A stretch of DNA of 64,000 nucleotides from Aquificota bacterium. Its GTDB lineage: Bacteria > Aquificota > Aquificia > Aquificales > Hydrogenothermaceae. Where the stretch lies: NCBI GenBank assembly GCA_013153635.1, contig JAADDZ010000010.1, forward strand, positions 1 through 64,000, in the 5' to 3' direction. Of the stretch, positions 14,536 to 61,792 are shown in pieces. The notes under the pieces are model-generated. The model was not told the DNA's origin, searched no databases, and saw nothing but the letters and a program-made list of their open reading frames with translations. Each line of letters opens with the position of its first letter. The first letter of the stretch is position 1. The position numbers and the translations under genes were made by a program.

Positions 14536-14784
14536 ATGTGTCCTTACTGTGGTGATGATAACTATGTAAAAAATGGAAAGGTGAACCAAAAGCAGACTTA
14601 CCTATGTAAGACTTGCAGAAAAAGGTTTGTTAAAAATAGAGAGAAAAATGCTTACGGAAAGCTCATCAGAGAAAAAGCTCTGAATCTATATAAAGAAGGG
14701 CTTTCTCTTCGTAAGATTTCCAAGCTTACAAACATACCCCATACAACGATAAACTATTGGGTGAGGAAATACAAATTACAATAG
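14536..14784 (+). CDS. Small zinc-ribbon plus helix-turn-helix protein, IS1/InsA-like
   Basis: An 82-residue protein. Residues 2-27 form a CPYC...CKTC zinc ribbon with the KxxQ(T)YxCKxCxKRF pattern of IS1-type InsA and related transposase N-termini. Residues 40-80 form a helix-turn-helix (LYKEGLSLRKISKLTNIPHTTINYWVRKY). No catalytic DDE domain follows and no terminal inverted repeats were seen, so this is either a transposase remnant or a domesticated DNA-binding protein. It has an intact frame, an AAAAGGG ribosome site and a proper stop, which favours a functional gene. The promoter of the downstream dksA-like gene starts just after it. Confidence 0.7.
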   Translation: MCPYCGDDNYVKNGKVNQKQTYLCKTCRKRFVKNREKNAYGKLIREKALNLYKEGLSLRKISKLTNIPHTTINYWVRKYKLQ

Positions 14785-16104: not shown

Positions 16105-17226
16105 TTAGACCTCCATATGGTAGTAACTTTTTTGAATTGCATATTTTTCCAATATATCACGGAGCTTATCTAGATTCCATTTTTTCTCTGCTGATATTAC
16201 TATGGTCTCTCTTCCTAGTGCTAGTAGTGTTTCATCTTCTTCATCGATGTAATCTTTGGAGGGGATTACTTTGTCTATCTTGTTTAGTACTAAAACTGTA
16301 GGTTTTGTGTCTAGGTTTAGTTTTTTTAGTATATTTTCTACCGCTTCTACTTTGTCTGTCCAGTTTTCATCGGATACATCAACAGTATGTAATATCAGGT
16401 CTGTTTCATACAGCTCTTCTAAGGTTGTCATAAATGCTTCTAGTAATGATTCAGGTAAGTCTTTCACAAAGCCTACTGTGTCTGTGATAAGTACTTTTTT
16501 GTTTATTTGGGGAATATATATATAAGAAGTTTTAGTATCTAAAGTAGCAAATAGTTTATCTGAAATATAGGTATCTCTCTTTGTTAATCTTTTTAGTAAA
16601 GTTGACTTTCCAGCGTTTGTATAACCTACTAAGGATACTTTTAGTGTATTTGGGTCTTTGTTTCTTGACTTTCTCTGCTGGTAGTTTTGACTCTTTATGT
16701 TTTTTAGCTCTTTTTTTATTTTAGAAATTCTCTCTTTTATTCTTCTTACTTTAATCTCTCCAAGTTTTTCTCCTGCACCTTTTGTTTTGTATCCTCCTCC
16801 TATTCTAGATAGGTGCTTTCCCCGTTGGTTGTATACTCTTGGAAGCTCATGCTCTAAAACAGCTAACTCTACTTGGAGTTTTGCCTGCTTTGTTTTGGCT
16901 CTCTTTTCGAATATTGATAAAATCAGGTCTGTTCTATCCAAGATGGAAACGTTGGTTATCTTTTCCAAGTTTGATATTTGTACTGGGGTTAGCTCTGTAT
17001 CTATGATTATTGTGTCGGCTTTTGTTCCTTCTGCTATTTGAGCTAGCTGTTTTGCCTTTCCTTTACCTATAAAGGTAGAAGGTTCTGGAATGTCTTTTTT
17101 TTGGACTAGTTTTCCGATTACCTTTCCATTTAGAGCTTTTACTAGTCCTTCTAGTTCTTGTATAGATTCTTTTAACTCTTTTGGTCTTTTTTCTTTTGTG
17201 TGTAAACTTACTAAAATTGCTCTCAT
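16105..17226 (-). CDS. hflX: Ribosome-associated GTPase HflX
   Basis: A 373-residue GTPase that binds and splits stalled 70S ribosomes. The N-terminal HflX domain includes TFIGKGKAKQLA and DTELTPVQISNLEK; a linker with RVYNQRGKHLSRIGGGYKTKGAGE contains the Gly-rich stretch typical of the family; the G domain has GYTNAGKSTLL (G1), DTVGFVKDLP (G3) and NKID (G4). Genomic setting miaA-hfq-hflX is the classical arrangement, here on the - strand. The gap from hfq is 26 bases and the HIT gene follows after one base. Length is normal. Confidence 0.96.
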   Translation of the reverse strand: MRAILVSLHTKEKRPKELKESIQELEGLVKALNGKVIGKLVQKKDIPEPSTFIGKGKAKQLAQIAEGTKADTIIIDTELTPVQISNLEKITNVSILDRTDLILSIFEKRAKTKQAKLQVELAVLEHELPRVYNQRGKHLSRIGGGYKTKGAGEKLGEIKVRRIKERISKIKKELKNIKSQNYQQRKSRNKDPNTLKVSLVGYTNAGKSTLLKRLTKRDTYISDKLFATLDTKTSYIYIPQINKKVLITDTVGFVKDLPESLLEAFMTTLEELYETDLILHTVDVSDENWTDKVEAVENILKKLNLDTKPTVLVLNKIDKVIPSKDYIDEEDETLLALGRETIVISAEKKWNLDKLRDILEKYAIQKSYYHMEV

Positions 17227-17252: not shown

Positions 17253-17444
17253 TTAGTCTGCAACGATTGTACTAATGGCATGCTTGTATATGAGCTGTTT
17301 TTGTCCGTTTACATCTACCAAAATCGTAAATTGGTCTGCGGCTACGATTTTGCCTGTTATCCTTGTTCCTCTAGTGAGATATATAGTTACCTCTTTTCCT
17401 TCTTCTTTGAATTCTTCTAGAAGTTCCTCTTGTATTGACATCAT
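17253..17444 (-). CDS. hfq: Hfq-like RNA chaperone, copy 1 (acidic rim variant)
   Basis: A 63-residue Sm-like protein in the classical miaA-hfq-hflX position. The Sm1 strand region VTIYLTRGTRITGKI, AADQFTILV and the Sm2 motif YKHAIS match Hfq; Gln5 corresponds to E. coli Gln8. The lateral rim, which is basic in E. coli (RRER), reads KEEGKE here, so RNA annealing by the rim is probably weak. The C-terminal tail is absent. Its ATG overlaps the miaA stop in an ATGA, with GGAGG 8 bases upstream. A second, more canonical-looking Hfq is at 60586-60825. It presumably forms a hexamer; its RNA targets are unknown. Confidence 0.9.
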   Translation of the reverse strand: MMSIQEELLEEFKEEGKEVTIYLTRGTRITGKIVAADQFTILVDVNGQKQLIYKHAISTIVAD

Positions 17445-18361
17445 GTCCGTACCTCCTTTTGTATAGTTTTTACTATACCCTGTAAAGCTTCTTGGCTTCC
17501 TCTATCAGTCAGATTTATAGGGATAAGGTCTTCTTTCTTTTTAAGTGTCTTTATCTGCCTTTTTGCAAAGAGTTTTGTATTTTTTATTATATCTTGGATA
17601 CTCTCCTCAAGAGATTGTTTTTTTTCTAAATAAGGCAATAGCTCTTTGTACCCTATAGCTTGGGAAGAAGTTATAGCCTTTTTGTATCCCATATCTATCA
17701 GATTTTTAAGCTCTTCTACCAAACCTTTCTGTATCATGTTAAAAACCCTTTTTTCTATCCTATTTTCTATCTCTTTTTTTTCTCTGGTGATATTAAAACC
17801 TATAAAATCATATCTCCTATTTTTAAAACTATGTTCTTTTATAAAGTTTGAAAAGGGTTTTCCTGTTAAATAAAAAACTTCTAATGCTCTGATTATTCTT
17901 TTTTTATCATTTTTATGGATTTTTTTGGCATAGCTTTGGTCTATTTTTACTAATCTTTCAAACAGTTCTTCTGTGGAGAATCTGTACAGTTCTCTTCGTA
18001 AACTCCAGTTGGCTTTGGGAGCTTTGGACAGACCGTACAAGAGAGCTTGTATGTACAGCCATGTCCCTCCCACTACGATGGGTACTTTTCCTTTTTTTTG
18101 TATCTTTTTTATATGTCTGTCTGCCAATTCAATAAATTCTTTGGCTGAAAATATTTCATTAGGCTCTTTTATGTCAATTAAGTAATGAGGTATGTTCTGT
18201 CTTTCTTCTAAAGATGGCTTCGCTGTGCCTATATCCATGTACTTATATACCATCATAGAATCAGCACTTATTATCTCTCCATCAATGATTTTTGCTAACT
18301 GTATCGATATATCTGTTTTCCCTGTGGCTGTTGCTCCAGTAATGATTACTATTTTTGCCAT
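17441..18361 (-). CDS. miaA: tRNA dimethylallyltransferase
   Basis: Adds dimethylallyl to A37 of tRNAs that read UNN codons. P-loop GATATGKTD near the start, DSMMVYKYMDIGTAKPS, IPHYLIDIKEPNE, GGTWLYIQALLYGL and the tRNA-binding KKRIIRALEV are all present, and the length (306 residues) is normal. The ATG at 18361 fits the family start; another ATG at 18379 would add six residues and neither has a good ribosome site. First gene of a five-gene - strand operon leading into hfq through a 4-base overlap. Confidence 0.95.
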   Translation of the reverse strand: MAKIVIITGATATGKTDISIQLAKIIDGEIISADSMMVYKYMDIGTAKPSLEERQNIPHYLIDIKEPNEIFSAKEFIELADRHIKKIQKKGKVPIVVGGTWLYIQALLYGLSKAPKANWSLRRELYRFSTEELFERLVKIDQSYAKKIHKNDKKRIIRALEVFYLTGKPFSNFIKEHSFKNRRYDFIGFNITREKKEIENRIEKRVFNMIQKGLVEELKNLIDMGYKKAITSSQAIGYKELLPYLEKKQSLEESIQDIIKNTKLFAKRQIKTLKKKEDLIPINLTDRGSQEALQGIVKTIQKEVRT

Positions 18362-18419
18362 ATCGCATAAAATATACATTGGAAGGAAATATTTAGCAAC
18401 TTAATTTATAATGGAATAG

Positions 18420-59710: not shown

Positions 59711-59789
59711 TAAAAGCTCCGAAAATATTTGAAAAGTATACACAATAATATATTATTATAGATAGAATATAAAAAGGGGTAGTTTGGTA

Positions 59790-60581
59790 ATGGGAAAAAA
59801 ATCGATTCTCTCTTTTTTAATTTTTACAGTATTTATAGCTGTTCCTTATCAAAAAGCTTTCTCTATTAGCTTTGATGATTTTGGTGCTGTGTGGGGGGAA
59901 TATTTTGCAGAAGCTCTAAATGAGTTTTTAGATTTAGGTATTATTGATGAGGACGACTTAGAAGAGTTTTCCGATTCTTTTCCAGCAACAGTTGATGTAG
60001 AAGGAGCTACAGCTGATATAAAAGTCTTTCCTAATAGTTTATTTTTTGGAGCTTGGCCTGAAGGCTTTAGGTCTCCAAAGCTTCCTTTGATAGTTACCAA
60101 CGATGGTGTAGAACCTGCGATAATAAGGAAAGTGGAGATTTCCGGTGACCATGAAGACGATTTTAGAATCGAAAGTGAAGATTGTGAAGGTGAAACCTTA
60201 GGAAACGCTGACACTTGTGATATTAGAATATCTTTTAAACCTACAGATACAGGGGATAGAAAAGCTGACCTCGTTATCCATTGGTTTTCTGCTTCTCAAG
60301 GTTTTCAAGAGGTAACTGTTAATCTATACGGTATAGGTCTTCCGGGAGACCCTACTGATATATGTGATTTTGATGATTTGATTAATGGAGAGTGTGGTGG
60401 ATTTGACTTTCCTTCTCCTTTCTCCTCTGGAGAGCCAACTATAGCCGATTCACAAAAGTTAGAAAAAAGCTCTGTTAACGATATTGATGCAAGTGGTGGC
60501 TGTAATTTTGGGAGTGCTATTGTAGTTCCTATATATCTCTTGATTCCGTTTATACTACTCTTTAGAAGGATTAGAGGGTAA
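59790..60581 (+). CDS. Exported choice-of-anchor D protein with C-terminal sorting-like tail
   Basis: A 263-residue exported protein. A signal peptide (SILSFLIFTVFIAVPYQKAFS) leads to an acidic region, then an immunoglobulin-like ASH/choice-of-anchor D domain (residues about 70-190: IKVFPNSLFFGAWPEGFRSPKLPLIVTND...FKPTDTGDRKADLVIHW). The end has SGGCNFG followed by a hydrophobic helix and RRIRG, the tripartite form of Synerg-CTERM/JDVT-CTERM-type sorting signals. A processing protease is not in the window. ATG 59790 follows GGGG at 59776-59779. It is a solitary gene, convergent with hfq2; the ligand and surface role are unknown. Confidence 0.78.
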   Translation: MGKKSILSFLIFTVFIAVPYQKAFSISFDDFGAVWGEYFAEALNEFLDLGIIDEDDLEEFSDSFPATVDVEGATADIKVFPNSLFFGAWPEGFRSPKLPLIVTNDGVEPAIIRKVEISGDHEDDFRIESEDCEGETLGNADTCDIRISFKPTDTGDRKADLVIHWFSASQGFQEVTVNLYGIGLPGDPTDICDFDDLINGECGGFDFPSPFSSGEPTIADSQKLEKSSVNDIDASGGCNFGSAIVVPIYLLIPFILLFRRIRG

Positions 60582-60585
60582 ATCT

Positions 60586-60825
60586 CTAATCCTCCCCTTG
60601 TTCATATTCGAACTCTATATCTGTTTTAGGTATAACTGTGGTTATAGCATGTTTGTACACGAGTATCTGTCTTGGACCCTCTTTTAGTAGTATGGTAAAA
60701 GCATCAAAGTATCTTATCTTCCCTTCTAATTTGACACCGTTTACTAGATAAATCATAACTCTGATTTTTTCTTTTCTTAAAGCATTAAGAAACTGCTCTT
60801 GAAGTTTCCCTTTCTTTTTTGACAT
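60586..60825 (-). CDS. hfq: Hfq RNA chaperone, copy 2
   Basis: A 79-residue Hfq. [31 protein letters not shown] closely follows the proteobacterial protein, including Gln9, the basic rim (R17-K18-x-K20), Tyr26, and the Sm2 motif [10 protein letters not shown]. Gln41 of E. coli is replaced by Ala42 (FDAFTILL). An acidic tail ends in EYEQGED. It is the third gene of lysS-ADP-ribosylglycohydrolase-hfq, 17 bases after the glycohydrolase, with GGAGG. It differs from copy 1 (17253-17444), which has an acidic rim but keeps the Gln. Confidence 0.93.
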
Positions 60826-60841: not shown

Positions 60842-61792
60842 CTAATGATGTGGAGACACCTTATATAGTTTTTTTGCTATTTTTACTATCTGGGTATAAT
60901 CCTTTAACTTAGCTTTCCAGCTGTCAGGTATACTTTCTTCAGAATTGTAAGCCCCTGCTAAAGCTCCAGCTATCAATCCTATGGAATCTGTATCCCCTCC
61001 ATAATCTCCATAGGAGTTTACAGCATTTATTATGACTTCTTTTGTGTTTTCTGAATCTTTTAAAAAGATAAACAAAGCTAAAGAAAAAGCTTCAAGAGCG
61101 TACGAACCGTTACCAAGCTCTTTTATAGCATCTTCTAAAGAAGCCTCTCCCTTTAGGAGTAGTTTTACTTTTTCGAGGTAATCTTTGGTCTCTTTTTGAG
61201 AAACAAATGTCTGTAAAAGCCGTATAAAATAGGTATACTCATCTTTAAAATAGAATCTCCCTTGTAAAGCTTCCCCAATAGATACTGCCAATGCTGACGC
61301 TACATCAAGTACTATCTCATTTCTATGGGTGAGCATTACAACAGCTTTTGTCCCTTCTACCGCTAGCATTGGATTTGCATAGTGGTACATTCCTATTGGA
61401 ATAGCTGGTAAAGCTCCTTCTATAGAACTACTGTTTATAGTATGTTCTTTTCCTTCTTTTATGGAACGGATAGCCACGAGAAAAGCTGGGTCTACATACA
61501 TATGTAATTCTTCTTGCTCTTCCCATTTTATATATGCGTTTATTATGTCTTTTATGTCTATTTTCCCTCTTTCTGCTATTGATTTTGCTATCAATTTTAC
61601 TATCAGAAATTCGCTAGAATTTTCACCTGCTTTTAAGAAGTTTGCTGGGGATAATGGGTGAGGTTCACACGGCTCGGTAATTTTACCTCCGTAGTGTAAT
61701 ACCACTTCATCAAAAGGTATCTCTTCTACACACATTCCCATACTATCACCAATTGCGGCACCAACAAGACAGCCTGTAAACCTACTCTCCAA
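60842..61792 (-). CDS. ADP-ribosylglycohydrolase-family protein
   Basis: A 316-residue all-helical protein. [18 protein letters not shown] at the start and [17 protein letters not shown] at 265-281 are the family ends, the latter giving Asp267 and Asp269 metal ligands. The first metal motif, normally T-D-D-T, reads ENSSEF at residues 57-62, so the two-metal centre is probably incomplete. Ordinary members remove ADP-ribose from proteins; this one may bind another ligand or have a different activity. Sits between lysS and hfq2. Confidence 0.85.

Follow-up and report, generated by a model that had tools for sequence, protein, structure and literature searches.

An altered Hfq paralogue at the miaA-hflX locus accompanies a canonical Hfq across the Aquificales

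Genomes of the Aquificales carry an ancient pair of Hfq proteins. One member, copy 1, appears from its residues to keep only one of the three usual RNA-binding surfaces unchanged, and the other, copy 2, is by sequence simply a canonical Hfq. A division of labour between the two is plausible. We describe the pair starting from the window, the whole 64,000-nucleotide stretch of DNA that we analyzed, which lies on contig 22 of a draft genome of 1.69 Mb.

The Hfq pair in the window and across the order

The window's genome contains two Hfq genes, both on the reverse strand: hfq1 (17253..17444), encoding the 63-aa copy 1 (MMSIQEELLEEFKEEGKEVTIYLTRGTRITGKIVAADQFTILVDVNGQKQLIYKHAISTIVAD), and hfq2 (60586..60825), encoding a 79-aa canonical Hfq. 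A preliminary description of the window had named them as Hfq paralogues, which is borne out by PF17209 (cut-off 27; 76.4 bits for copy 1 and 96.5 bits for copy 2) and TIGR02383 (cut-off 61.7; 79.8 and 97.5 bits). Copy 1 is thus an Hfq by curated domain models. For the equivalog model NF001602 / PRK00395.1 (cut-off 95), copy 2 scored above the cut-off (101.6 bits) and copy 1 below it (62.7). Copy 1 also fell below the cut-offs of NF047718 (25.8 of 52 bits) and PF21979 (25.2 of 27) and is not a member of the mobile / cyanobacterial Hfq-related clade. Strong ribosome-binding sites are located 5' of both copies (AAAGGAGG), that of copy 1 being AAAGGAGGT. Among solved structures, copy 1 matched Listeria Hfq best (E=1.6e-12), and copy 2 matched 5szd, the Hfq of Aquifex aeolicus (E=7.5e-26). 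AlphaFold predicts an Sm fold for copy 1 with confidence (pLDDT 94.5), and the solved chains closest to this model were Hfq (TM up to 0.94).

Copy 1 occupies the miaA-hfq-hflX position, as first described, with both flanking genes on the same strand. Its 5' neighbour miaA (17441..18379, reverse strand, PF01715) overlaps hfq1 by 4 bases, and hflX (16105..17226, reverse strand, PF13167/PF16360/PF01926) lies downstream. Immediately upstream of hfq2 is an ADP-ribosylglycohydrolase gene (60842..61792, reverse strand, PF03747). A convergent ORF that adjoins hfq2 (59784-60581) contains an Ig-like HYDIN/CFA65-type domain (PF22544) and a hydrophobic C-terminal segment ending in RRIRG, and was recognised in the same genus only. 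Elsewhere in the window, an 82-aa ORF (14536-14784) resembles a zinc-finger and helix-turn-helix protein of an insertion sequence, by eye one like InsA of IS1, and is possibly a transposon remnant.

The preliminary description had left the retention of the two genes in relatives to be checked, and neither is commonly lost. Hfq was present in all 61 genomes of our initial search, with two copies in nearly all. In a phylum-wide search, at least two Hfq matches were found in 98 of the 112 genomes of families f1 (the window's own), f2, and f3, where genomes with one match or none were fragmented drafts, and two matches were found in each of the 12 single-contig genomes of the order that were searched. 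The nearest named carrier of copy 1 among the matches listed was a Sulfurihydrogenibium (Hydrogenothermaceae, Aquificota), and copy-1-like proteins may exist in other phyla too. Two genomes from family f4 of the same class (G112 and G113) had no Hfq match, though G113 is 95% complete, and Hfq may be absent from this lineage.

Copy 1 is under strong purifying selection. Its dN/dS ranged from 0.012 to 0.069 where dS was measurable, and comparison of the window with a genome of the same genus gave pN of 0.014 and pS of 0.95. Since pN is far below pS and the pair recurs across the order, we consider the observation more than chance.

RNA-binding surfaces of the two copies

We compared the surfaces of 42 copy-1 and 51 copy-2 sequences, using E. 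coli numbering. On the proximal face, Q8, D40, F/Y42, K56, and H57 were kept in all 42 copy-1 sequences, which agrees with the preliminary description, and the same residues were kept in copy 2 (n=51; one sequence with His at 42). The U-binding residues Gln8, Phe/Tyr42, Lys56, and His57 are all present in the window's copy 1, which also retains Gln38 (E. coli position 41), as had been reported. Judged by these residues, the proximal U-pocket of copy 1 is intact.

The rim differs between the copies. In E. coli, N13, R16, R17, and F39 form a lateral pocket seen with RydC (PMC5379935). The corresponding residues of copy 2 (N13, R16, K17, and F39) were each 96–100% fixed, and the window's copy 2 keeps its rim, with the segment RKEK, as originally noted. 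In copy 1, the commonest residues at these positions were E, K, E, and A, at frequencies of only 43–69%. The window's copy 1, in which residues 13-18 read KEEGKE, has Glu, Lys, Glu, and Ala in place of Asn13, Arg16, Arg/Lys17, and Phe39 (the last being Ala36) and does not have the lateral pocket; Phe39 is mostly gone from copy 1 in the window's family. Net charge over residues 13-21 ranged from -3 to 0 in f1 copy 1, compared with +3 to +5 in copy 2, and was mostly +1 in f2 and -1 to +1 in f3 copy 1. The initial claim that copy 1 lost its basic rim therefore holds for the window's family but only partly for f2, where some basic residues are kept (e.g., KRK) and N13 and F39 are lost.

The preliminary description had further read Ala42 of copy 2, at E. 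coli position 41, as a change complementary to the rim loss of copy 1. The residue was correctly identified but is unremarkable, as copy-2 orthologues have T, L, N, P, I, M, Q, S, or A at position 41, where the solved Aquifex Hfq has Leu and that of B. subtilis has Asn. Because this site varies freely in copy-2 orthologues and other normal Hfq, we rejected a defect of copy 2 at Gln41, and the idea of complementary changes in the pair is not supported. Copy 2 has the proximal pocket, rim, tail, and equivalog score of a canonical Hfq.

Uniform changes to the distal face and loss of the acidic tail, both omitted from the earlier account, also distinguish copy 1. The distal strand of the window's copy 1 is R25-G-T27-R28-I29-T30, equivalent to E. 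coli positions 28-33. Across copy-1 sequences, R28 and R31 occurred in 42 of 42, accompanied by T/N30, I32 (one Met), and T/V/S33, and copy 2 had N28 (one Ser), V/I30, K/R31, L32 (two Ile), and Q/E33. The residues at positions 28, 30, and 33 were wholly distinct between the copies. An apparent change at distal Gln52 was dropped, because a one-residue indel shifts that column between two alignments. The C-terminal tail is ~1 aa in copy 1, which does not have the acidic tail, versus family medians of 12–26 aa for the acidic tail of copy 2. The remade distal face is the most uniform change in copy 1 and, with the loss of the acidic tail, its order-wide signature. In Hfq, the acidic tip of the C-terminal domain acts on the basic rim. 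Since this domain is reported to inhibit non-specific annealing (PMC6561178), a joint loss of rim and tail makes sense.

Gene neighbourhoods, phylogeny, and origin

Each copy has its own conserved neighbourhood. A miaA / hflX neighbourhood marks the classic Hfq clade (PMC11607428); f1 copy 1 has both genes (miaA-hfq1-hflX-HIT-TusA), f2 copy 1 has hflX only (hfq1-hflX), and copy 2 has neither. The f3 copy 1 loci that we read had neither miaA nor hflX within 3 kb. In most genomes of f1 and f2, the ADP-ribosylglycohydrolase gene (PF03747) lies directly 5' of hfq2. The sister family f5 has a stand-alone Hfq with normal rim and tail, whose gene has miaA upstream at 21 of 21 loci and sits between miaA and hflX at four. 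This protein has an R/K28-G-T30-R31 strand in common with copy 1 but retains Q33 and the rim.

In a tree built on 60 columns, copy 2 formed a clade (support 99/98), and copy 1 grouped with a long-branched fusion domain from f5, apart from all canonical Hfq (99/98). The fusion domain's position, on a branch of length 2, may be due to long-branch attraction. Grouping copy 1 with the miaA-linked Hfq of f5 was allowed (AU p 0.79), as were other groupings with these 60 columns, and the tree leaves the orthology of these two undecided; the basis for proposing it is locus position and the shared R/K28-G-T30-R31 strand. We infer that the gene at the miaA locus is the resident one, that a duplication or transfer added copy 2 in the Aquificales stem, and that the resident gene lost its rim pocket, tail, and Q33 after copy 2 arrived.

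Other origins of copy 1 were considered and rejected. Plasmid matches covering most of copy 1 were ~51% identical or less, which argues against recent arrival by plasmid or phage, and two altered-rim plasmid Hfqs that we read were without R28 and T30. A firmicute derivation, in line with the best PDB match to Listeria, was set aside as the tree does not place copy 1 there. The altered rims of the plasmid proteins (L267:280-504 and L268:238-462; Bacillus subtilis and Rossellomorea) read TQTKKDNK and NQARRNGQ, which suggests that the rim is a recurrent site of divergence in extra Hfq copies.

A further observation concerns f5. In nearly all genomes of this family, genes that read as efp-accB-accC are followed downstream by a tandem pair encoding proteins of ~156–190 aa (L227:4857-5927, L229:3773-4741, L231:4315-5320, L233:4111-5108, L235:4568-5553, and L236:4611-5619). 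Both proteins carry an Hfq domain at the C-terminus (PF17209, E about 1e-11 to 1e-14). Pfam helix-turn-helix matches to the N-termini were all under cut-off. The genes look like an undescribed HTH-Hfq fusion pair, which we offer as a lead only; their Hfq domains are likewise without rim Arg/Lys16-17.

Possible roles of the pair and comparison with known systems

The explanation we favor, at a little less than an even chance, is that copy 1 is a specialised ring that holds U-tails without rim-based annealing and that copy 2 does the usual annealing. Copy 2 would act as a full-service RNA chaperone, equipped with the basic rim and acidic tail as well as the proximal pocket and distal face. Copy 1, at the ancestral miaA-hfq-hflX locus, would have become a specialised ring that should still be able to hold the U-rich 3' ends of RNAs on its proximal face but lacks both the acidic tail and the lateral pocket that aids sRNA-mRNA annealing. 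Its distal strand carries two invariant arginines per subunit, which would make twelve per hexamer. Such a homohexamer could hold or cap U-tailed RNAs, and its distal face could dock a partner of a non-standard kind, whether a protein or a further RNA, with no annealing promoted. What we show for copy 1 is its changed residues and their conservation, the selection on it, its gene order, and a confidently predicted Sm fold; hexamer formation, RNA binding, partners, and the division of labour we infer. The broader proposal is possible but rather less likely: an ancient, order-wide two-ring system, its resident gene rebuilt to give a U-tail-holding ring with a new distal interface, so that one ring holds RNA and another anneals it.

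Several results favor specialisation of copy 1. The pair is widespread, copy 1 has low dN/dS, and its proximal residues are invariant; its rim is relaxed, its distal R28 and R31 are invariant, its tail is lost, and the two copies separate at 99/98. Additionally, a canonical, rim-bearing Hfq sits at the same miaA(-hflX) locus in f5, and the rimless, short-tailed Hfq3 of Bacillus anthracis forms hexamers and acts via distal residues. Against this, rim strength varies in ordinary Hfqs, with K16 and A17 in S. aureus, and the Hfq3 precedent works by its distal, not its proximal, face (PMC5348863). T or S at position 33 also occurs in ordinary acidobacterial Hfq, and loss of annealing is perhaps not order-wide, as the f2 rim segment keeps basic residues.

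The invariance of the distal strand, unlike that of RNA-binding Hfq, could instead mean that copy 1 works mainly via a protein partner, its basic distal strand docking on a cellular machine in the way that Synechocystis Hfq docks on PilB1 (PMC4390875). By this analogy, which we consider improbable but the strongest of the alternatives, the full proximal U-pocket would not need to be invariant, as it also is; no partner gene is evident, and miaA and hflX are the usual neighbours of a classic hfq gene. Slightly less probable is that copy 1 is an mRNA-side regulator whose basic distal face binds RNA of altered sequence preference. Hfq3 would be the analogue, having the rim IEEQ, a very short tail, a distal face predicted to be more basic, and action through distal residues such as R27 (PMC5348863), but copy 1 has Thr/Asn for Ile/Val30, and a mutation at position 30 abolished E. 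coli Hfq activity (PMC5348863). Mixed hexamers had been raised in the preliminary description; in such rings, the mix of copies 1 and 2 would set how strong the rim is and how many tails are present. The near-identical β4-β5 region of the copies (QLIYKHAISTIV in one of them) makes a shared interface conceivable, but hfq1 and hfq2 are in different operons with different neighbours, and we consider this more doubtful still. Drift of a redundant copy 1 towards loss, which the relaxed rim and lost tail might suggest, is already disfavoured and very improbable given the low dN/dS (0.012-0.069), a core invariant across the order, presence in all 12 single-contig genomes, and a strong ribosome-binding site.

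If copy 1 is a specialised ring, RNA would be held by one ring and annealed by another within a single cell. The contribution of each Hfq surface is usually studied with point mutants, and copy 1 would offer a natural test, with an intact proximal face and altered rim, distal face, and tail, beside a canonical ring and across an order. Both are proteins of heat-loving bacteria and should purify easily, which makes the question directly testable.

One of the closest known systems is that of Aquifex. The hfq2 product of one genome (G061, locus L102) is identical to the 5szd chain over 71 aligned residues, and on this basis we regard the genome as that of A. aeolicus or of a very close relative. 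Copy 1 (NIQDELLNRFKQQGTTITVFLTRGNRIVGKVLDHDRYTILLEVEGQPHLIYKHAVSTIVEGG) is encoded there too, adjoining hflX. Aquifex aeolicus apparently keeps both versions, and work on "the" Aquifex Hfq therefore covers one of two proteins. Stanek et al. (2017, PMC5379935), who described the structure, mention no paralogue in their text, and our search of the open-access literature, with subscription papers outside its scope, found no report of a second Aquifex Hfq; copy 1 is a conserved paralogue that apparently has no description in the open literature we searched, and its general kind is already known. Copy 2 is an orthologue of the Aquifex Hfq in 5szd/5sze, which it matches in rim and acidic tail. For copy 1, the Sm fold of this protein is predicted (TM 0.93), but copy 1 is ~44% identical to it, has neither its lateral pocket nor its tail, and differs by distal R28/T30/R31/T33.

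Outside the Aquificales, Hfq3 of B. anthracis is a partial precedent for copy 1. It is plasmid-borne, has the rim IEEQ and a very short tail, forms hexamers, depends for its action on distal residues, R27 (= position 31) among them, and has a distal face predicted to be more basic (PMC5348863). Like copy 1, it is an extra copy with a replaced rim patch, a very short tail, Arg31, and the proximal Q and K kept. Going by the paper's description of Hfq3, copy 1 differs in being chromosomal, order-wide, and at the miaA-hfq-hflX locus, with R28, T/N30, and T/V33. Burkholderia cenocepacia has two functional Hfqs per cell, Hfq and Hfq2, whose expression differs during growth (PMC3474761); likened by description, that pairing is genus-scale, compared with order-scale for copies 1 and 2. 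In cyanobacteria, the main known contact of Hfq is a protein, as in Synechocystis, where it docks on the pilus ATPase PilB1 (PMC4390875), whereas copy 1 scores under the NF047718/PF21979 cut-offs and retains the proximal U-pocket.
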